A stretch of DNA of 64,000 nt from NCBI GenBank assembly GCA_011390885.1, contig JAABRO010000003.1, forward strand, positions 1 through 64,000, given 5' to 3'. Positions 1 through 38,292 of the stretch are shown here, one piece after another. A program made the translations under genes and the position numbers. Source of the DNA: Gemmatimonas sp. Lineage in GTDB: Bacteria > Gemmatimonadota > Gemmatimonadetes > Gemmatimonadales > Gemmatimonadaceae. Position 1 is the stretch's first letter, and every line of letters begins with the position of its first letter. The notes beneath the pieces were generated by a model. The model saw only the letters and a list, made by a program, of their open reading frames with translations. It searched no databases and was not told the origin of the DNA.

Positions 1-231
1 GCCGGCCTCCTCGCTCTCGCGAGGCCTCGTCGTGCGCCACCACCCAGCCGCGCCGCCGAAGGCGGCGAAGCTGATCAGCTGGGCCTCCGCTCCGCGCGGG
101 AGCAGACGTCGTCTCACCCTGCTGCCCCTCGCGCGATGCCGCGGGTCGCTGGCCAGCTCCGCAGCTGAATCAGCTCAGGGCTGTCAGCCTGCTGGCGCTC
201 ACCAGCGCCCGCCTCAGCTCCGCCGGTTTCC
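1..231 (-). repeat. Truncated, inverted copy (copy A) of the GATCAG/CAGCTG repeat array
   Basis: Read on the minus strand, this stretch aligns with the first ~230 bases of the array that begins at 11514. It shares the entry motif GCGGAAACCGGCGG, the arm starting GAGCGCC and running through CAGCTGCGGAGCTGG, the GCTGATCAGC palindrome, and the hairpin around CGCCGCC/GGCGGCG. It continues past the left edge, so total length is unknown. Its entry end overlaps the last codons and stop of the EEP-family gene at 214-1215. No protein is supported: the open frames here reflect GC content. Confidence 0.85.
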
Positions 232-4303: not shown

Positions 4304-4412
4304 GGTCCACGGGGTGGGGGCGGGCCCGTCGCGGACCACTGCCGGGGGCGCCGGGCTTCGCCGGCTCGCCCTCGGTAGACGCCGCGCCGAACCCGCCCCC
4401 ACCCCGTGGACC
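4304..4412. repeat. Nested GC-rich palindrome (family 3) between the fasciclin and amidohydrolase genes
   Basis: Perfect 21 bp arms at 4304-4324 and 4392-4412 (outer sequence GGTCCACGGGGTGG and its complement) enclose 67 bases. Inside are CCACTGCCGG and CGGTAGACGCCGCGCC, which recur almost unchanged in the palindrome at 37993-38077. It is too long and GC-rich, without a T-run, to be an ordinary terminator. It occupies the middle of a 362 bp gap holding no gene. Confidence 0.7.
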
Positions 4413-6233: not shown

Positions 6234-6301
6234 ACGAGCGTGGGTGTCGGTACGGCAGGTTTGCAGCGGATCAGCGGTTTCAGCTGTTGCAGCTGCTTCA
6301 G

Positions 6302-6479
6302 GTGAACACTCGAGTCTCGAGGCTCGTGGCTTGAGACTCGGGTCCGTGCTGCGCGATGCCTGACAGGAGTTGCAGCGTCGTAGTACAGGCTGGCTGTGCG
6401 AACATCGCGTCGGTTCGCACGAATCTCGCGGAACGGACTCGAGCCTGAAGCCACGAGGCTCGAGACTCGTGGGTTCAAC
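6302..6479. repeat. Palindromic element, family 2, copy 1
   Basis: Arms of about 46 bp (6302-6347 and 6433-6479) are near-perfect reverse complements. The outer ends are GTGAACACTCGAGTCTCGAGG and CGAGACTCGTGGGTTCAAC, and the inner ends pair GGTCCGT with ACGGAC. The 85-base middle shows nothing recognisable. The same arm sequence recurs at 8532-8717 and 16438-16600. Just upstream (6271-6301) is a short stretch, CAGCGGTTTCAGCTG, resembling the arm of the family 1 array. Together these fill most of the 279 bp gap between two same-strand genes. Confidence 0.85.
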
Positions 6480-6512
6480 CGCACGCACGAATCACATTCA
6501 ACGTTCCTCAGC

Positions 6513-8515: not shown

Positions 8516-8531
8516 GGTTCGGGGGCGGGGT

Positions 8532-8717
8532 GCAGTTGAACCCCCGAGACTCGCCCCTCGCCGCTTCCCGCTCGGGTCCGTTCGGTGTGATCTCGGCAAG
8601 GTTGCCATGATCTTCGCGCGTAGTCACGGAACTGCGACACGTGGCCTCATCGCTGACATCGCGCAGAACGGACCCGAGCGGGAAGCGGCGAGGGGCGAGT
8701 CTCGGGGGTTCAACTGC
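8532..8717. repeat. Palindromic element, family 2, copy 2, with perfect 52 bp arms
   Basis: Positions 8532-8583 and 8666-8717 are exact reverse complements over 52 bases. They start GCAGTTGAACCCCCGAGACT and end ACTCGGGGGTTCAACTGC. The 82-base loop holds nothing recognisable. Two degenerate half-arms follow, at about 8729-8749 (GCGAGACTCGGGAGTTCAA) and 8761-8777 (GAGCCGCGAGGGTTCAA). It lies between convergent genes, the M42 peptidase and nth. A perfect arm pair argues for recent formation or for active correction between the arms. Confidence 0.92.
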
Positions 8718-8779
8718 CAACGCCGAAGCGCGAGACTCGGGAGTTCAATTGCCGCTGACGAGCCGCGAGGGTTCAACCG

Positions 8780-11513: not shown

Positions 11514-12498
11514 GCGGAAACCGGCGGCGCTGAGGCGAGCGCTGCTGAGCGCCGGCAGGTTGCCAGCCCTGAGCGGTTTCAGCTGCGGAGCTGGCCAGCG
11601 AACCGCGGCATCGCGCGAGGGGCAACAGTGTGAGATGACGTCGGCTGCGGTGCGGAGCGAAGGCTCGGCTGATCAGCTTCGCCGCCTGCGGCGGCGCGGC
11701 TGGGCGGTGGCCCTCGACGGGGGCGCGCGCGAGCGACAAGGCCTGCCATGCCGCGATCGCGCCGGAGGCTGATCAGCTCCGCAGCTGGAAGGGCTCGGGG
11801 CTGCCGACCTGCAGGCGCTCGGCGATATCAGCCGGGTCGCGATGGTTTCCGAAAGCGGGTCGGTGCGCTGAAGGGCCGATCAGCTGGACAGCTGCGGGGC
11901 TCGTCCGCGCGCTGTGCTCCGCGCTGGCATCACCGAGCGCCGGCAGGTTGTCAGCCCTGAGCGGTTTCAGCTGCGGAGCTGGCCAGCGAACCGCGGCATC
12001 GCGCTAGGGGCAACAGGGTGGGATGACGTCGGCTGCGGTGCGGAGCGAAGGCTCGGCTGATCAGCTTCGCCGCCTGCGGCGGCGCGGCTGGGCGGTGGCC
12101 CTCGACGGGGGCGCGCGCGAGCGACAAGGCCTGCCATGCCGCGATCGCGCCGGAGGCTGATCAGCTTCGCAGCTGGAAGGGCTCGGGGCTGCCGACCTGC
12201 AGGCGCTCGGCGATATCAGCCGGGTCGCGATGGTTTCCGAAAGCGGGTCGGTGCGCTGAAGGGCCGATCAGCTGGTCAGCTGCGGGGCTCGTCCGCGCGC
12301 TGTGCTCCGCGCTGGCACCGCTGAGCGCCGGCAGGTGGTCAGCCCCGAGCGGTTTCAGCTGCGGAGCTGGCCAGCGAACCGCGGCATCGCGCGAGGGGCA
12401 GCAGGGTGAGATGCCGTCGGCCCCTGCGCGGGGCAACCACCCAGCTGATCAGCTTCGCAGCTGAAGCAGCTCAGGGCTGACCACCTGCCGGCGCTCAG
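11514..12498 (+). repeat. GATCAG/CAGCTG modular repeat array B (three inverted-arm modules, 388 bp period)
   Basis: A ~55 bp arm (GAGCGCCGGCAGGT...CAGCTGCGGAGCTGG) alternates in direct and inverted orientation. Direct arms are at 11547-11600, 11935-11988 and 12323-12376. Inverted arms are at 11765-11820, 12153-12208 and 12442-12496. The first two modules are long (about 274 bp plus a 114 bp linker, an exact 388 bp tandem period with few differences). The last is short (about 174 bp) because the middle section is missing. Inside are GCTGATCAGC, CGCCGCCTGCGGCGGCG and GCGATCGCG palindromes. Open frames do not keep phase across the 388 bp period, so it is judged non-coding. It fills the 1,041 bp gap between polX and the next leftward gene. 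Array C at 33419 has the same plan. Confidence 0.92.
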
Positions 12499-12542
12499 CG
12501 GCCCCAGCCCGAGCACCCTCCCCCGCCGAACCCCGTCCCCCT

Positions 12543-31900: not shown

Positions 31901-32103
31901 TCGAGCGGCGTCGCCACGGTGGACGCCATCACCTCCGGGCTCGCGCCCGGCAGGTTGGCGCTCACCGAGATGGTGGGGTAGTCGATCGTGGGCAGGTCGC
32001 TCACCGGCAGGTTGCGGTACGCGACGGAGCCGAACACGAGCACGGCCAGCATGACCAGCGTGGTCATGACCGGCCGACGGATCCAGATGCCGCTCAGGTT
32101 CAT
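28981..32103 (-). CDS. RND efflux pump inner-membrane transporter (HAE1/AcrB-like)
   Basis: A 1,040-residue proton-driven transporter. The N-terminus (MNLSGIWIRRPVMTTLVMLA) and internal features are typical: two large periplasmic loops and about 12 transmembrane helices in two homologous halves. The proton-relay DDAIVMLEN motif lies near residue 405. The 'LPVSDLPTIDYPTISVS' stretch after the first helix is a hallmark of the MdtB/MdtC/AcrB group. It exports hydrophobic or amphiphilic compounds using the proton gradient. A strong AGGAGG ribosome-binding site lies seven bases upstream, and the start overlaps the adaptor stop codon (ATGA). The outer-membrane partner is not adjacent; the TolC-like protein at 19644 or another could serve. 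Confidence 0.95.
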   Translation of the reverse strand: MNLSGIWIRRPVMTTLVMLAVLVFGSVAYRNLPVSDLPTIDYPTISVSANLPGASPEVMASTVATPLEQAFATIPGIEDISSQSTQGATNINLQFSLSRDLDGAANDVQAAIAGSLRNLPEGIQPPTYRKSNSDATPVLILSMNSDQLSRTELNEWAETFLAQRLSTIEGVAQVQVYGSAKFAVRIQLDPGAMASRGIGIDEVQAAVANGNSALPAGVLMGPNQSFTVQATGQLRSAAEFRQLVVAYRNGAPVRLGDLGVVLDDVQNNRVSSQVNGRGNIALAIIRQPGTNTVAVADAVKATVEALKPQLPASIQFLPLYDRAVSIKESVHDVQFTLVLTLGLVVLVIFLFLRNMRATSIPSLALPFSIVGTFSVMWALGYSLNNLTLMALTLSVGFVVDDAIVMLENIVRHLEMGKKPMQAALDGSKEISFTILSITLSLVAVFIPIMFMPGLVGRLFREFAVTIGVAILVSGFVSLTLTPMLCARWLKGDEGHGHTEGKWRSVERIYQAGENGYVRSLDWVMRHRPATMLFSFLTLAATVGLFIVIPKGFLPSEDTGRVEASILGPEGIGFESMLARQTDVATIVRANPHVETVLSSVGGGGRASTGNNGRLIIRLKPRDQRPHVDVVMRQLQREAAVVPGMQTFFRNPPPISIGGFRSNSAYQITLQSTDIAQLYTAARAFEGKMRALDLVEGVTSDLQIGNPQVSVDIDRERAASLGVTAGQIERALYNAYGSRQVSTIFTQVNQYWVIMELKPEYQRDVEALKMLHVRAADGTLVPLGAVARFSRGVGPLSVQRVGQLPAVTISYNTRPGVALGTAVDAVQTLAAQELPPDIATSLTGDTKAFADAQEGLLLLLVVAVFVIYVVLGILYESYIHPVTILSGLPFAAMGALATLLIFDKDLSVYAFVGIILLVGLVKKNAIMMIDFAIEVERDQQLAPRAAILEAARVRFRPIMMTTFAALMGTLPIAVGYGAGAESRQPLGLAVVGGMAFSQLVTLYVTPVIYTYFDQFAQWRAARKRARQRGVTPSVPEVLPTA

Positions 32104-33311
32104 GAGGCACCTCCTGCGCCACGCGCGCTGTCGGCGCCTGGCGCCGGAGTCCCGGGAGCCGCCGTGCCCACCGCGGCGGACGCGTCACGGGCCTGCACGG
32201 CCATGCCGTCGGCCACGCGCTGCTGTCCGTCCACGATCACGCGCTCGCCACCGCTCAGCCCTTCGGTGATGAGCACCTTTGTGCCCGTCTGCCGGCCAAG
32301 GCGCACCGGCACGCGACGCGCCTTCCCCTCGCCGTCCACGGTGAACACGAAGTACGCATCGGCCACCTGCACCACCGCCTGCGCCGGCACCGTCACCGCC
32401 TCGGTCTCGATGGCGAGCTCGAGGGCGACCTGCACGAACTGTCCGGGCCAAAGCGCGCCGTCGCTGTTGGGGACGCGCGCCTTGAGCGTGACGGCACCGG
32501 TGCTCTGGTCGATGGCATTGTCCACGAAGGCGAGCGTGCCGGCAATTCGCTTCGCGGTATCCCCGACCGAGGGCTTCACCTGCACCGGCAACGGCCGGTC
32601 GAGGCCGCCACGCGTGCGCAGCTCGGCGAAGTCGGTCTCGGGCACGGCGAAGCGCACGAGCACCGGCCGCACCTCGTTGATGGTCACGAGCGGCGTTTCG
32701 TTGAGCGCGCGCACCACGTTGCCCTCGCGGAACGCGAGCTGCCCGGTGCGACCGGCGATCGGCGCACGCACGGTGGCGTTCGAGAAGTCGAACTGCGCGC
32801 GCTCCACGGCGGCGCGATCGGCGGCGACGGTGGCGGTGAGCGCCCGCACGTCGGCCTGGATCTGGTCGTACTGCTCGCGTGTGACGTAGCCGTCCTTGGC
32901 GAGCGTCTCGTAGCGCGCAGAATCGGTGCGCGCACGCGACAACTGCGCCTCGTCGCGCGCGAGCACGCCCTGCACACGATCGAGCTCGGCGCGGAACGGG
33001 CGCGGGTCGATTTCGAACAGCACCTGCCCCTGCCGCACGTCGTCGCCCTCGGCGAACGCGACGCGCGTGAGCAGGCCGGTGACCTGCGATTGCACGGCGA
33101 CGAACCGATTGGGCTCGACCTGGCCGTTGGCGATGACCACGAAGGGCACCGCCCCACGCTCGGCGGTGGCCGTACCGACCACCGGCGCCGGACGCTGTGG
33201 CGGCGGGGCGTCCTCGCAGGCCGCGAGGAGCAGTCCGCCGGTGAGCAGCGACAGTGTCCGCCGCGTCGAAAGCAGGCGCGTAGCGTACGCCCGCGGGAAT
33301 CGATCGATCAT
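32100..33311 (-). CDS. RND efflux periplasmic adaptor lipoprotein (MdtA-like)
   Basis: A 403-residue membrane-fusion protein. The lipobox LLLAAC places the lipidated Cys at 32. The barrel-sandwich halves (about 70-100 and ATVRAPIAGRTGQLAFREGN near 180) flank a coiled-coil hairpin. A beta-barrel and a membrane-proximal domain follow, and the end is Ala/Pro-rich. The ATG at 33311 gives a proper lipoprotein signal; a GTG 18 codons upstream is less likely. It is translationally coupled to the RND transporter and is the first gene of a two-gene operon. Its upstream region abuts repeat array C. Confidence 0.93.
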   Translation of the reverse strand: MIDRFPRAYATRLLSTRRTLSLLTGGLLLAACEDAPPPQRPAPVVGTATAERGAVPFVVIANGQVEPNRFVAVQSQVTGLLTRVAFAEGDDVRQGQVLFEIDPRPFRAELDRVQGVLARDEAQLSRARTDSARYETLAKDGYVTREQYDQIQADVRALTATVAADRAAVERAQFDFSNATVRAPIAGRTGQLAFREGNVVRALNETPLVTINEVRPVLVRFAVPETDFAELRTRGGLDRPLPVQVKPSVGDTAKRIAGTLAFVDNAIDQSTGAVTLKARVPNSDGALWPGQFVQVALELAIETEAVTVPAQAVVQVADAYFVFTVDGEGKARRVPVRLGRQTGTKVLITEGLSGGERVIVDGQQRVADGMAVQARDASAAVGTAAPGTPAPGADSARGAGGAS

Positions 33312-33418
33312 GGGGGAACGAAGAGGGGAGCGTCCGCGGCAGAACACCGCGAACCGACTCTCCACTAACGCAATGCGGGGCGGTTTGGTTGTCAGGGGGG
33401 CGCGGTTCGCCCCCGTTC

Positions 33419-34385
33419 CGTGTTCCGCGCTGGCACCACCGAGCGCCTGCAGGTGATCAGCCCTGAGCTGGTTCAGCGGCGGAGCTGGGCAGCGAACGGC
33501 GGCATTGCGCGAGGGGCAACAGGATGAGACGACGTCGGCTGCGGAGCGGAGCGGAGGCTCGGCTGCTCAGCTTCGCCGCCTGCGGCGGCGCGGCTGGGGG
33601 GTGGCACTCGACGAGGGGGCGCGAGAGCGACAAGGCCTGCCATGCCGCGATCGCGCGGGAGGCTGAACAGCTCCGCAGCTGGAAGGGCTCGGGGCTGGGG
33701 ACCTGCCGGCGCTCGGCGGGGCCGGCTCGGGTCGCGATGGTTTCCGCAAGCGGGTCGGTGCGCTGGTCAGCTGGACAGCCGCGGGGCTCGCCCGCGCGCC
33801 GTGCTGCACGCGAGCGCCGCGGGTCGCCTGCAGGTGAACAGCCCTGAGCTGCTTCAGCTGCAGAGCTGGCCAGCGAACCGCGGCATCGCGCGAGGAGCAG
33901 CAGGGTGAGCCGGCGTCGGCCCCTGCGCGGAGCAACCACCCAGCTGAGCAGCTGCGCCGCCTGAGGCGGCGCGGCTGGGCGGTCGCCCTCGATGAGGCCA
34001 CACGTGAGCGGAGTGGCCCGCCACGCCGCGATCATGCAGGAGGCTGATCAGCTCCGCCGCTGGAACGGCTCGGGGCTGTGAACCTGCAGGCGCTCGGCGA
34101 TGTCAGCCGGGGTCGCGATGGTTTCCGAAAGCGGGTCGGTGCGCTGAAGGCTGGTCAGCTGGACAGCTGTGGGGCTCGCCCGCGCGCCGTGCTCCGCGCC
34201 AGCGCCGCGGATCGCCTGCAGGTGAACAGCGCTGAGCTGCTTCAGCTGCAGAGCTGGCCAGCGAACCGCGGCATCGCGCGAGGAGCAGCAGTGTGAGCTG
34301 CTGTCAGCACCGGCGCGGAGCAGCCACCCAGCTGATCAGCTGCTCGGCTGAAACGGCTCACAGCTGCCCACCTGCAGGCGTTCAG
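33419..34385 (+). repeat. GATCAG/CAGCTG modular repeat array C (long-long-short modules)
   Basis: The array has the same architecture as the one at 11514-12498. Direct arms begin at 33441, 33822 and 34210; inverted arms are at 33659-33714, 34040-34095 and 34330-34385. Periods are 381 and 388 bp, and the last module is again the short one. Arm sequence has drifted (GCCTGCAGGTGATCAG in place of GCCGGCAGGTTGCCAG), often with matching changes in the opposite arm. The core GCTGATCAGC, CAGCTG and CGCCGCC/GGCGGCG palindromes persist. No coding signal is credible. It fills most of the 1,084 bp between two leftward genes; its short end is 10 bp from the PDZ-protein stop codon. Confidence 0.92.
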
Positions 34386-34395
34386 CCCCCTCCGC

Positions 34396-35394
34396 TCACG
34401 GCGCCCGCGCTGGCCGAGGTACCCCCGGCGCCCCCGGCGCCATCGGGCGCGCCATCCACCCGGGTCCCACTATCGTCGCTGCGCCGTCCGGCCCGCTCCG
34501 GAACTCGACGCGGTACCCACTCCCGCCGAACTCCGACGCCTTGCCGGCCGTCACCGTGACGTCCCGGTAGCGACCGCCTCCGTACACCCGAAGCGCGATG
34601 CGATCGCCGGGCGCGGCCTTCTCCACCTCCCGGAGCAGCCGTGCCACGCGGGCCTGGCGTGCCTGCGCGTCCTCGGCGTCTTCCCGGGGCACGCGCACGT
34701 CCACCCCGTTGATGGCGGCGATGCGCTCCCCTTCCACGACGCCGGCCTGGTCGGCCGGCCCCTTGTCGGTCACGCTGGTCACGAACACGCCCAGCGTGTC
34801 GCGGGCGTTGCCGGCGCTCCCCACGCCGAGGCCGAGCGCGGCGCGCGACTCGAGGGACTCGCGCACGCCGCGCAGGCGCGGCGCCACCGTCGCCACGCGT
34901 GAGCGGGCGAGGTCGGCGGCGGAGACGGTCGTCAGGGTGACGGTGCGCACGCCCGTGCCCTCCCGCACGCGCAGTTCGACCGCGTCGCCGGGTTTCGCCT
35001 TGCCGAGTTCGCGCTGCAGGCGGCGATAGCCGGCATCGGCGGTGAGCGGGTCGGCCGCGTCATCGGCGGAGATGCGCAGCGAAACACCGTTGATCGCCTC
35101 GATGCGCGCGCCGGCGACGAGCCCCGCCTTCGCGGCGGGTCCATCGGGCGTGACCTCGGTGATCTCGAGGCCGGCGGTGTCGGCGCGCGTGCCGGTGGAC
35201 AGTCCCACGCCGAGCACGGCGCGGTTGGCGTCGGCCAGCGCGAACGCCATTGCGCGCGGTGCTTCGAGCGCGCGGATGCGCACCTGCGGGTCCTGCGCGT
35301 GCAGCACGGACAGCGGCGCAGCGACCACCAGCGCGAACGCGCGGGCGAACGGGCCGGCGATCGATCCGCGGGTGACGAAGACGAAACGGGTCAT
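34396..35394 (-). CDS. Secreted protein with two PDZ domains
   Basis: A 332-residue protein: signal peptide (about 1-33, ending LSVLHAQ) and two PDZ domains. The first spans about 60-155 (LGVGLSTGTR, then GPAAKAGLVAGARIEAINGV); the second about 190-290 (LGLGVGSAG, then GPADQAGVVEGERIAAINGV). No protease domain is fused, so it is not a DegP-type enzyme. It probably acts as a periplasmic binding or scaffold protein; the partner is unknown. The C-terminus is Pro/Ala/Gly-rich. It lies 63 bp downstream of leuS on the same strand and may be co-transcribed. Confidence 0.87.
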   Translation of the reverse strand: MTRFVFVTRGSIAGPFARAFALVVAAPLSVLHAQDPQVRIRALEAPRAMAFALADANRAVLGVGLSTGTRADTAGLEITEVTPDGPAAKAGLVAGARIEAINGVSLRISADDAADPLTADAGYRRLQRELGKAKPGDAVELRVREGTGVRTVTLTTVSAADLARSRVATVAPRLRGVRESLESRAALGLGVGSAGNARDTLGVFVTSVTDKGPADQAGVVEGERIAAINGVDVRVPREDAEDAQARQARVARLLREVEKAAPGDRIALRVYGGGRYRDVTVTAGKASEFGGSGYRVEFRSGPDGAATIVGPGWMARPMAPGAPGVPRPARAP

Positions 35395-35457: not shown

Positions 35458-37920
35458 CTACACGACGAGGTTGAGCAGCCGCCCCTTCACGTAGATGACC
35501 TTCTTCGGCTCGCCCGTGACGAACTTGGCGATCGTCGGGTCGTCGAGCGCCGCGCGCACCACGTCCTCCTGTGTGGCATCGGCCGCCACCTGCACGCGGC
35601 CACGCGTCTTGCCCTGCACCTGCACCGCGACCTCGACGGTGTCCTCCACCATGAGCGCGGCATCCCACGCCGGCCACCCGGCGTCGAACACGCTGCCCGT
35701 GTGCCCGAGCTGTTCCCAGCACTCTTCGGCGAGGTGCGGCGCGTACGGCGCGACGAGCTGCACGAGCGGCGCGACTTCGTCGACGTGCACGGTGCGCTCG
35801 GCACGACGCAGCACGTTCATGTACTCCATCATGGCGGCGATTGCCGTGTTGTACGCGAGCGCGCCGGTGTCCTCGCCCACCTTGCGGATGGTCTGGTGCA
35901 GCTTGCGCATGACATCCGCATCGGGCGTGCCTTCACGATCCGCGTCGCGCACCGCCGCCCAGAGGCGATCGAGGAAACGACGCACGCCGCTGATGCCCTG
36001 CGAACGGAAGTCGCCGCCCTCCTGGTACGGCCCCAGGAACATGAGGTACATGCGGAAGGAGTCCGCGCCCCACTCGTTCACGTACTCGTCGGGGTTGATG
36101 ACGTTCCCCTTCGTCTTCGACATCTTCGCGCCATCGCGAATGATGAGGCCGTGCGCGCGGAAGCGCGTGAACGGCTCCTCGAAGTCGAGATGGCCACCAT
36201 CCTTGAGCGCCATCGTCACGAAGCGCGAATACAGCAGGTGCAGCACCGCGTGCTCGTTGCCGCCGATGTACGAATCCACCGGGAGCCAGCGCTGCGTGAT
36301 GCCCGCGTCGAACGCGACGTCCTCGCGGCGCGCGTTCGGGTAGCGCAGGAAGTACCACGCGCTGTCGAGGAACGTGTCGGACACGTCGGTCTCGCGGCGC
36401 GCGTTCCCGCCGCAGGTCGGGCACGGCACGTTGTACCACTCGGCGTGCCGCGCGAGCGGCGAGACGCCGGAGTCATCGGGCTTGAAGTCGGCGATGTGCG
36501 GCAGCTCGACCGGCAGCTGTTCCTCGGGCACGGGCACCGTGCCGCAGGTGTCGCAGTACACGATGGGAATGGGCGGGCCCCAGTAGCGCTGCCGCGACAC
36601 GCACCAGTCGTGCAGGCGGAAGTTCACTACCGGCTCGGCGTGTCCGCCAGCGCGCAGCCACTCGGTGACCTTCGCCTTGGCATCGGCGACCGGCGTGCCG
36701 TCGAACGCGCCCGAGTTCACGAGGTGCGCCGCGGCGTCGTCGGTGAACGCGGCCTCGAGCGGCGTATTCGCGTCCGCGTCACCGCCCGCCACCACGCGCT
36801 TGATCACCGCCTCGCGCGACAGGCCGCACTGCGACGCGAACTGCGCGCCGAGCACCTCGGCGAACTCGAAGTCGCGCTCGTCGTGGCCAGGCACGGCCAT
36901 GATCGCGCCGGTGCCGTACTGCATGAGCACATAGTCGGCAATCCAGATCGGCACGCGCGCGCCGGTGGCCGGGTTGATCGCCCAGCTGCCGGTGAACTCG
37001 CCCGTCTTCTCGGTGACCGACTTGCGCGAGACGAGATCCTGCTTCGTGGTGCGCTCCTGGTACGCGCGCACGGCACTGACGCGATCGGGCGTGGTGAGCA
37101 CGTCCACGAGCGGATGCTCGGGCGCCAGCACGAGGTACGTCGCGCCGAAGATCGTGTCGGGGCGCGTGGTGAACACGCGCACCTGCGCATCGCGCGCATC
37201 GACCCGGAAGGAGACTTCCGCGCCTTCGCTGCGGCCGATCCAGTTGCGCTGCGCGCTCTTCGTGACCTCCGACCAGTCGAGCGTGTCGAGGTTGGTGAGC
37301 AGCCGCTCGGCGTACTGCCCGATGCGGAAGAACCACTGCTCGAGGAAGCGCTGCTCGACCACGGTGCCGCATCGCTCGCACGCGCCGCCCTCGACCTGCT
37401 CGTTGGCGAGCACGGTCTTGCAGCTCGGGCACCAGTTCACCGCGGCGGCCTTCTTGTACGCGAGCCCCTGCTTGTGCAGCTGCAGGAACACCCACTGCGT
37501 CCAGCGATAGTAGTCGCGCTGCGACGTGTCCACCTTGTAGCGCCAGTCCACCATGAGGCCGGCGCGCTCGAGCTGGCGCTGGAAGTTGCCGACGTTCTTC
37601 GGCGTCAGCTCCATGGGGTGCGCGCCGATCTTCAGCGCGTAGTTCTCGGAGTGGATGCCGAACGCATCGTAGCCGAGCGGCTGGAAGACGGTGTGGCCGA
37701 GCAGCCGGTGATAGCGCGCGGAGATGTCGCTGCCGGTGAAGGCGAAGAGGTTCCCGACGTGCAGCCCTTCGGCGCTCGGGTACGGGAACATCATGAGCGC
37801 ATAGAACGGACGCTCGCCGTTGGCGAGGTCGACGTGATTGGTGCCGCGCTCGGCCCAGGCGCGCTGCCAGCGCGCTTCGACGGCCTGCGGATCGTAGGCG
37901 ACGGGTTCGGTCGTGTGCAT
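35458..37920 (-). CDS. leuS: Leucyl-tRNA synthetase
   Basis: An 820-residue class Ia aminoacyl-tRNA synthetase charging tRNA-Leu. The HIGH motif appears as HVGN in PYPSAEGLHVGNL (about 47-59) and KMSKS as KMSKTKGN (about 600). Zinc-finger cysteines are at CPSCKTVLANEQ...CERCG (about 160-180), CDTCG and CPTCGGN (about 455-505), and the CP1 editing domain lies between. The C-terminal anticodon-binding and leucine-specific parts are complete, ending KVIYVKGRLLNLVV. A TATGTT box sits six bases before the ATG, with GGGAGG filling that gap. Confidence 0.97.
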   Translation of the reverse strand: MHTTEPVAYDPQAVEARWQRAWAERGTNHVDLANGERPFYALMMFPYPSAEGLHVGNLFAFTGSDISARYHRLLGHTVFQPLGYDAFGIHSENYALKIGAHPMELTPKNVGNFQRQLERAGLMVDWRYKVDTSQRDYYRWTQWVFLQLHKQGLAYKKAAAVNWCPSCKTVLANEQVEGGACERCGTVVEQRFLEQWFFRIGQYAERLLTNLDTLDWSEVTKSAQRNWIGRSEGAEVSFRVDARDAQVRVFTTRPDTIFGATYLVLAPEHPLVDVLTTPDRVSAVRAYQERTTKQDLVSRKSVTEKTGEFTGSWAINPATGARVPIWIADYVLMQYGTGAIMAVPGHDERDFEFAEVLGAQFASQCGLSREAVIKRVVAGGDADANTPLEAAFTDDAAAHLVNSGAFDGTPVADAKAKVTEWLRAGGHAEPVVNFRLHDWCVSRQRYWGPPIPIVYCDTCGTVPVPEEQLPVELPHIADFKPDDSGVSPLARHAEWYNVPCPTCGGNARRETDVSDTFLDSAWYFLRYPNARREDVAFDAGITQRWLPVDSYIGGNEHAVLHLLYSRFVTMALKDGGHLDFEEPFTRFRAHGLIIRDGAKMSKTKGNVINPDEYVNEWGADSFRMYLMFLGPYQEGGDFRSQGISGVRRFLDRLWAAVRDADREGTPDADVMRKLHQTIRKVGEDTGALAYNTAIAAMMEYMNVLRRAERTVHVDEVAPLVQLVAPYAPHLAEECWEQLGHTGSVFDAGWPAWDAALMVEDTVEVAVQVQGKTRGRVQVAADATQEDVVRAALDDPTIAKFVTGEPKKVIYVKGRLLNLVV

Positions 37921-37932: not shown

Positions 37933-37992
37933 GCCGATTTTGGGGGTGTGCGGTCCGGCCGTTTTGTACGGTGTGGCGGCCCCGGCATGGGC

Positions 37993-38077
37993 ACGCGGGG
38001 CGCGGCCACTGCCGGTCCGGGCGCGCCGGGAGCGGCGGGGCCGCCCGGCGCTGACCGGCAGACGCCGCGCCCCGCGT
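37993..38077. repeat. Nested GC-rich palindrome (family 3) upstream of leuS
   Basis: Outer arms ACGCGGGGCGCGGC (37993-38006) and GCCGCGCCCCGCGT (38064-38077), middle arms CTGCCGGT/ACCGGCAG and inner arms GCGCCGGG/CCCGGCGC form three concentric stems. CCACTGCCGG and CGGCAGACGCCGCGCC are shared with the palindrome at 4304-4412. With the next two entries it occupies most of the 398 bp gap between the asparaginase-like gene and leuS. Confidence 0.75.
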
Positions 38078-38138
38078 CCCCGAGCCAGGTCCGACGGTGG
38101 TGCTCGGGCGGCTCAGCGCAGGAGATTGCGCGCGCACA

Positions 38139-38167
38139 CTGCCGCGCGGCCAGCCCGCCGTGCGGCA
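38139..38167. repeat. Small hairpin between two large palindromes
   Basis: CTGCCGCGCGG pairs with CCGTGCGGCAG (one mismatch) around a 7-base loop. It lies between the 37993 and 38175 palindromes and may be part of the same structure. Confidence 0.5.
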
Positions 38168-38174
38168 GATCAGG

Positions 38175-38292
38175 GGTCGGTCACGGGGCGGGGACCGACG
38201 CGCCGTCGGTCGGCCAGCGCCGGGCGGCCCTGGCCGCTCCCGGCGCGCTCGGGCCGACCGTTGGGCGCGGAGGCCCCGTCCCGGGACCGACC
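38175..38292. repeat. Nested GC-rich palindrome (family 3), second copy in the leuS upstream gap
   Basis: Outer arms at 38175-38193 (GGTCGGTCACGGGGCGGGG) and 38274-38292 pair with two mismatches. Inner arms at 38208-38224 and 38239-38259 (GGTCGGCC..GCGCCGGG with CCCGGCGC..GGCCGACC) pair again. It ends 26 bp before the stop codon of the leftward asparaginase-like gene. No T-run is present. Confidence 0.7.

Follow-up and report, generated by a model that had tools for sequence, protein, structure and literature searches.

A genus-restricted family of intergenic fold-back repeats in Gemmatimonas whose arms may stay complementary mainly through arm-to-arm copying

The ERIC/IRU and YPAL (RU-1 and RU-2) elements of enterobacteria are intergenic palindromic repeat units of 127 to 168 bp with a TA target duplication (PMC2759123), and REPINs are doublets of REP sequences that form hairpins and occur with RAYT transposases (PMC3116915). 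In a 64,000-nucleotide stretch of a Gemmatimonas sp. contig, here referred to as the window, we analyzed a repeat family that by description resembles ERIC/IRU and YPAL in being dispersed, mostly intergenic, MITE-like and able to form stable long hairpins, but that differs from them in its length (at least 280 bp), its tandem arrays, the replacement of its arms between species, and the lack of a recognized TA duplication. Like REPINs, the elements are hairpin forming, extragenic, dispersed, and nonautonomous; unlike REPINs, they consist of modules several times longer than the 20- to 40-bp REPs, and no Y1/RAYT gene was found with them. A search for RAYT (Y1_Tnp, PF01797) gave no match in the source genome and matches in 5 of 14 control genomes, and a RAYT/REP system was rejected because the source genome has no Y1_Tnp gene. 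With bacterial MITEs and fold-back elements the family shares long inverted repeats, a short element, and insertions that are absent from relatives, but neither a partner transposase nor a target-site duplication was identified here. A dispersed intergenic fold-back repeat is an ordinary kind of element; the unusual feature is that the arms have been rewritten and yet are still complementary. In this regard, template switching has been described as a process that maintains the stems of RNA genes by copying multibase compensatory changes from arm to arm (PMC8794818), and the same copying process takes place in bacterial quasipalindrome mutagenesis at reporter loci (PMC7202029). These precedents concern RNA genes and reporter loci, whereas we infer such copying across a dispersed bacterial repeat family.

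The array at positions ~33418 to 34388, here referred to as array C, was resolved by a repeat finder into three head-to-tail modules with start-to-start periods of 381 and then 388 bp. Each module is an imperfect palindrome of ~280 bp that is able to fold on itself, with the third copy carrying an internal deletion. The array and its flanking genes are laid out as follows.

32100..33311, minus strand: gene for an RND/HlyD membrane-fusion protein, flanking array C on its low side (Pfam HlyD_D23, HlyD_3)
33418..33438, plus strand: linker remnant GTGTTCCGCGCTGGCACCACC at the low end of array C, resembling the inter-module linkers and with no counterpart in the left flank of array B
33439..33720, plus strand: module C1, full-length imperfect palindrome of ~280 bp (nhmmer and repeat finder), 90% identical to B1
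33562..33596, plus strand: C1 core hairpin GCTGNNCAGCNNCGCCGCCNNNGGCGGCGNNGCTG (exact pattern match)
33721..33819, plus strand: C1-C2 linker with CAGCTGGACAGC-type motifs, 86% identical to the array B linkers
33820..34101, plus strand: module C2, full-length palindrome with a C3-like left half (92% identical to C3)
33943..33977, plus strand: C2 core hairpin, same exact pattern as the C1 core
34102..34206, plus strand: C2-C3 linker, 90% identical to the array B linkers
34207..34388, plus strand: short module C3, whose middle was lost between two GCTGATCAGCT direct repeats (from the alignment; junction common to B3)
34396..35394, minus strand: PDZ-domain protein gene on the high side of array C (Pfam PDZ_6, PDZ)

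A long module has outer arms of ~70 nt and a middle that is variable; its core hairpin follows the pattern GCTGNNCAGC-NN-CGCCGCC-NNN-GGCGGCG-NN-GCTG, for which there are 15 exact matches in the source genome and none in 393 other genomes of the class searched. An earlier note on this DNA had described six pairing arms in three modules. The repeat periods bear out the three modules, and each long one forms a single imperfect palindrome, as seen in the RNA fold of C2 (-180.5 kcal/mol on the plus strand and -180.6 kcal/mol on the minus strand; z = -7.2 on either strand, with none of 200 shuffles folding as well); folded as DNA, C2 has a z score of -4.7. The window contains seven palindromes whose arms reach 45 nt or more, whereas five shuffles contained none, and a short palindrome with 31-nt arms that are 90% complementary was noticed at 4304 to 4412. 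Long open frames are common at 70% GC, and minus-strand frames of 144 to 192 amino acids running across array C were dropped by the codon-composition gene caller; the 388-bp period is not divisible by 3.

The window contains a second array, array B (positions 11544 to 12501), with the following modules.

11544..11826, plus strand: B1, full-length palindrome
11932..12214, plus strand: B2, near copy of B1 (97.5% identity)
12320..12501, plus strand: B3, short, with the same deletion junction as C3

Both arrays follow a long-long-short order in which the third module lacks the middle, as had been stated before, and the B3 and C3 junctions are identical. The periods of 381 and 388 bp, however, had been wrongly assigned to C and B, respectively, as array C has one of each and array B has 388 bp twice. 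The two arrays can be aligned over 955 bp with 85% identity, and there is no similarity beyond the ends. B1, B2, and C1 group together, as do the left halves of B3, C2, and C3 with that of the C56 copy, and left-half and right-half trees agree; the left half of C2 is only 78% identical to B2, compared with its match to C3 given above. Judged from these groupings, arrays B and C are probably descended from one ancestral composite, which would account for the first and last modules; the middle modules differ in origin, having been duplicated or overwritten differently in each array. The common order is therefore partly convergent or overwritten, and the suggestion that a unit of ~950 bp had been copied finds support for the array ends but not for the middle modules. 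The B3/C3 junction is explained by a deletion between two GCTGATCAGCT repeats; since this repeat is a natural hotspot, the common junction alone is no proof of a single event.

The source genome is assembled into 62 contigs totaling 4.07 Mb, at 95% completeness. BLAST and pattern searches of it revealed 21 modules at 14 loci, 19 with the core and two short, on contigs C3, C14, C18, C27, C34, C43, and C56; they stand alone or in arrays of two or three. Since the assembly has probably broken at copies of this family, 21 is a lower bound on their number. Every copy is intergenic and most are separated from the nearest end of a gene by no more than a few tens of bases, as judged from gene calls made with a simple codon-composition script whose gene starts are approximate. 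Convergent, tandem, and two divergent contexts were seen, and the orientation of the copies relative to the flanking genes is mixed. There is no conserved host gene partner, the neighbors being varied housekeeping genes, and none of 20 neighboring proteins scanned was a transposase. The family may not be restricted to one chromosome domain, as the flanking genes map to scattered positions (about six points) in a relative with a one-contig genome. One copy lies at the edge of the window.

1..205, minus strand: family copy cut by the contig start, core at 45 to 79

Contigs C3 and C56 of the source genome (G000:C3:1 and G000:C56:1) begin inside or within ~70 bp of a copy.

The stop codon of the PDZ gene lies ~10 bp from the high end of array C. 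The gene order leuS-PDZ-HlyD is kept in three congeners (G001, G003, and G004) without an array between PDZ and HlyD. At the MnmE/DUF2268 site, the stop codons are about a dozen bases apart in G004 versus ~360 bp here, and the gap between the DnaB-like and PorX genes is 203 bp in G004 versus 1,045 bp here. The family copies are therefore insertions, or ancestral elements since lost from these relatives; gain is the simpler of the two, because most relatives are without the family. When the flanks were read by eye, no target-site duplication was recognized, the element ends being blurred with palindromes that extend to different lengths. At the DnaB-like/PorX locus, a gene for a response-regulator/PglZ fusion (PorX-like; L100, 12996 to 14558) adjoins the two-module copy, and the gene for the DnaB-like helicase domain is on the opposite side. 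A further palindromic stretch, at 37975 to 38270, lies just upstream of leuS (start at 37920); it may represent a repeat or else a leader that is conserved. It has no Rfam match, and similar sequences are present in each of the five genomes of the genus that were searched, beside leuS in G004 and also at other loci.

Plain BLAST searches of 99 relatives gave short, chance-like matches only, and a profile search of the loci so matched identified a single real one, L033 in another genome of the genus (G002; E = 5e-16). A covariance model of the core, the training set of which included L033, detected the repeat family in G002, with at least seven copies, and in none of 58 other relatives. The rest of the 179 genomes of the taxonomic family gave no copy under stricter filters, with which weak matches may be lost. 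Among the genomes searched, the repeat family is limited to two species of one genus. The core hairpin is kept in both species, and L033 combines the same core with arms of different sequence that pair over nearly their whole length (fold of -258.7 kcal/mol on the plus strand and -222.7 kcal/mol on the minus strand); several other copies, in G002 and here, form palindromes that reach 150 to 230 nt from the center. The core pattern was not found in GTDB contigs, from which records of the source genome were possibly left out. Phage, plasmid, and viral collections contained no match to a module, and an origin from such elements was rejected on this ground, as was a known structured RNA family, given that no Rfam family was matched in the window at the gathering threshold. 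Likewise, the linkers were not considered homologous to the G002 outer arms, as only a 14-bp motif stood above shuffles.

The earlier note had also proposed that the arms of arrays B and C pair partly through matched changes. When counted module by module, 12 of 82 stem pairs had changed between B1 and C1 and 21 of 82 between B2 and C2 (B2 being placed on the alignment via B1, ungapped), and neither comparison contained a Watson-Crick-to-Watson-Crick double change. In arm alignments, the change cited as an example, GCCGGCAGG/CCTGCCGGC versus GCCTGCAGG/CCTGCAGGC, was seen only in module 3 (B3 versus C3), in which several pairing-breaking changes occurred as well. The same pair is mismatched as GCCGGCAGG/CCTGCAGGC in B1 and B2 and as GCCTGCAGG/CCTGCCGGC in C1, and it is Watson-Crick in 8 of 16 family elements. 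Across the family, however, pairing goes well beyond slid controls. Sixteen full-length copies were aligned without reference to structure, and the stem was defined by symmetry, with column i facing column 292-i. Standard pairs made up 84% of this symmetric stem, with an outer stem of 67 pairs, versus 24 to 45% in slid registers; pairs changed on both sides numbered 24 (versus 6 to 9), the covariation score was 0.183 (versus 0.04 to 0.06), and parsimony gave ~22 Watson-Crick double changes (versus 0.5 to 3). As this covariation is far above that of the slid registers, the outer arms have changed together. Many of the double changes are transversions. In addition, the arms contain the invariant motifs CAGC, GCTG, and TTCAGC, which suggests some sequence constraint.

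When paired positions covary, this is commonly regarded as the strongest evidence that an RNA or DNA structure is functional, and a single strand under selection should tolerate G.T but not A.C. On one strand of the outer stem of the source-genome copies, G.T outnumbered A.C by 76 to 27 cells (23 versus 8 columns; P = 0.011), the inferred changes away from Watson-Crick in the outer stem were ~29 to G.T and 15 to A.C, and the consensus fold of these copies was -119 kcal/mol on the plus strand versus -78 kcal/mol on the minus strand. In the same G.T/A.C tally, the middle segment leaned in the opposite direction (43 versus 75 cells), and per element the bias flipped, with C2, the C56 and C18 copies, G165, G167, and G169 leaning the other way. 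Several sets of pairs were tallied, namely those of the plus-strand, minus-strand, and common folds, then those of symmetric segments, and finally those of each element; the strand test quoted is that of the symmetric segments, and the arms of individual elements were found by local alignment with no fixed frame. The strand asymmetry is thus suggestive at most as a sign of a single folded strand, and one folded strand, at which the aligned set had hinted, was rejected because the elements were inconsistent.

Arm matches clustered at spacings of up to 8 nt (z = 4.2, 3.7, and 3.2) and not at 9 to 70 nt, in a block test that holds the match rates of rows and columns fixed and controls only partly for phylogeny. 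With 11 less related representatives, a smaller excess remained (z scores of 3.3 for spacing 1, 1.1 for spacings 2 to 3, and 2.0 for spacings 4 to 8). Three spacings were tested on all copies first, followed by distance bins and the representatives; the idea of block copying came from reading the arm alignment, and the tests were run on the same data. Both arms carried the same version of a variable trinucleotide in 6 of 16 elements, and an intermediate state (2 of 3) was seen in a single element. In the arm tree, most arms from the source genome group by side, but the two arms of G157, and likewise those of G159, are each other's closest relatives, and the hetero-arm copies B1, C1, and G161 look like intermediates. 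Multibase tracts that match between the arms of a copy and differ between copies, as in the template-switch precedents, are therefore present in the family (short-range excess; G157 and G159). Taken together, the block pattern, the strand tally, and the arm trees favor episodic arm-to-arm copying, and selection may act too. With the matches in blocks, as if copied, matched changes alone are no proof of a selected structure; and with no strand consistently favored, copying is indicated at least as much as selection of the structure that had been suggested before, although the pairing itself is kept family-wide.

In light of this, we consider array C to be a tandem triplet of a dispersed intergenic fold-back repeat restricted to one genus, the arms of which are complementary mainly by arm-to-arm copying, and we give this reading a probability of about 60%. 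The family would be a mobile or formerly mobile repeat. Linked modules were probably copied as a composite to sites B and C, where tandem duplication (giving B2 from B1) and recombination between direct repeats (giving the common short third module) would then have reshaped the arrays locally. One arm would occasionally be copied onto the other in short tracts by template switching in the hairpin (quasipalindrome correction), and matched changes would for this reason appear in blocks; this copying is deduced from the arm patterns of existing copies. The excess of G.T over A.C on one strand is not predicted by pure copying and could instead reflect a hairpin that is itself selected, as folded RNA or single-stranded DNA (a noncoding RNA, a transcript-end stabilizer, or a protein-binding site), with the paired changes being compensatory. 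The 24 two-sided pairs versus 6 to 9 in slid registers, the different fold energies of the two strands in the source genome, the core hairpin kept in two species, and the position of the elements very near gene ends are all consistent with such selection, but the asymmetry is not shared by the six elements or groups of copies named above, the orientation relative to flanking genes is mixed, the matches lie in blocks with many transversions among the double changes, sites in congeners are empty, and no Rfam family is matched. We therefore regard a selected hairpin as an unlikely main cause of the complementarity. That the three-module plan is a selected functional unit is very improbable: module order, deletion junction, and linkers are alike in B and C, but the middle modules are of different origin, there is no insertion at the C site in the three congeners, and loci carry one, two, or three modules, the last being the outcome that the earlier note had itself named as speaking against such a plan.

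How the family spread is a separate matter. For such elements, one would usually invoke a transposase that acts in trans. It would recognize the terminal inverted repeats of a classical MITE or REPIN, and this is compatible with arm copying. The 67-pair outer stem of the 16 copies provides such repeats on a short element, insertion polymorphism is seen at the C site (G001, G003, and G004) and the MnmE/DUF2268 site (G004), and intergenic dispersal and confinement to two species fit as well, with REPINs as a precedent (PMC3116915). All 42 arm matches obtained by BLAST in the source genome, however, fall inside copies of the element, so that no autonomous partner with the same ends is seen in this incomplete assembly, in which (at 95% completeness and 62 contigs) a partner transposase could be missing. 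The source genome lacks a RAYT-type Y1_Tnp gene, no target-site duplication was recognized, and the 20 neighboring proteins include no transposase, which makes spread by this route possible but doubtful. Quite improbable in our estimation is spread via a hairpin-primed fold-back intermediate that uses one arm to template the other, so that each round rewrites the arms; if true, this would be mobile DNA that conserves its shape and a small core but not its end sequence.

To return to arm-to-arm copying within existing copies, the block pattern of the covariation fits such a mutational origin. If confirmed, this would call for caution in covariation-based RNA discovery, and the family would offer natural copies for measuring the lengths of arm-copying tracts in bacteria. 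A second, unrelated family of long palindromes was noticed in the window at 8521 to 8728 and 6296 to 6484. It has 60 matches in the source genome (~20 to 25 loci), and each of four congeners gave at most one weak match; by inspection, element-specific blocks are common to both arms in several of its copies (L206, L207, and L215).
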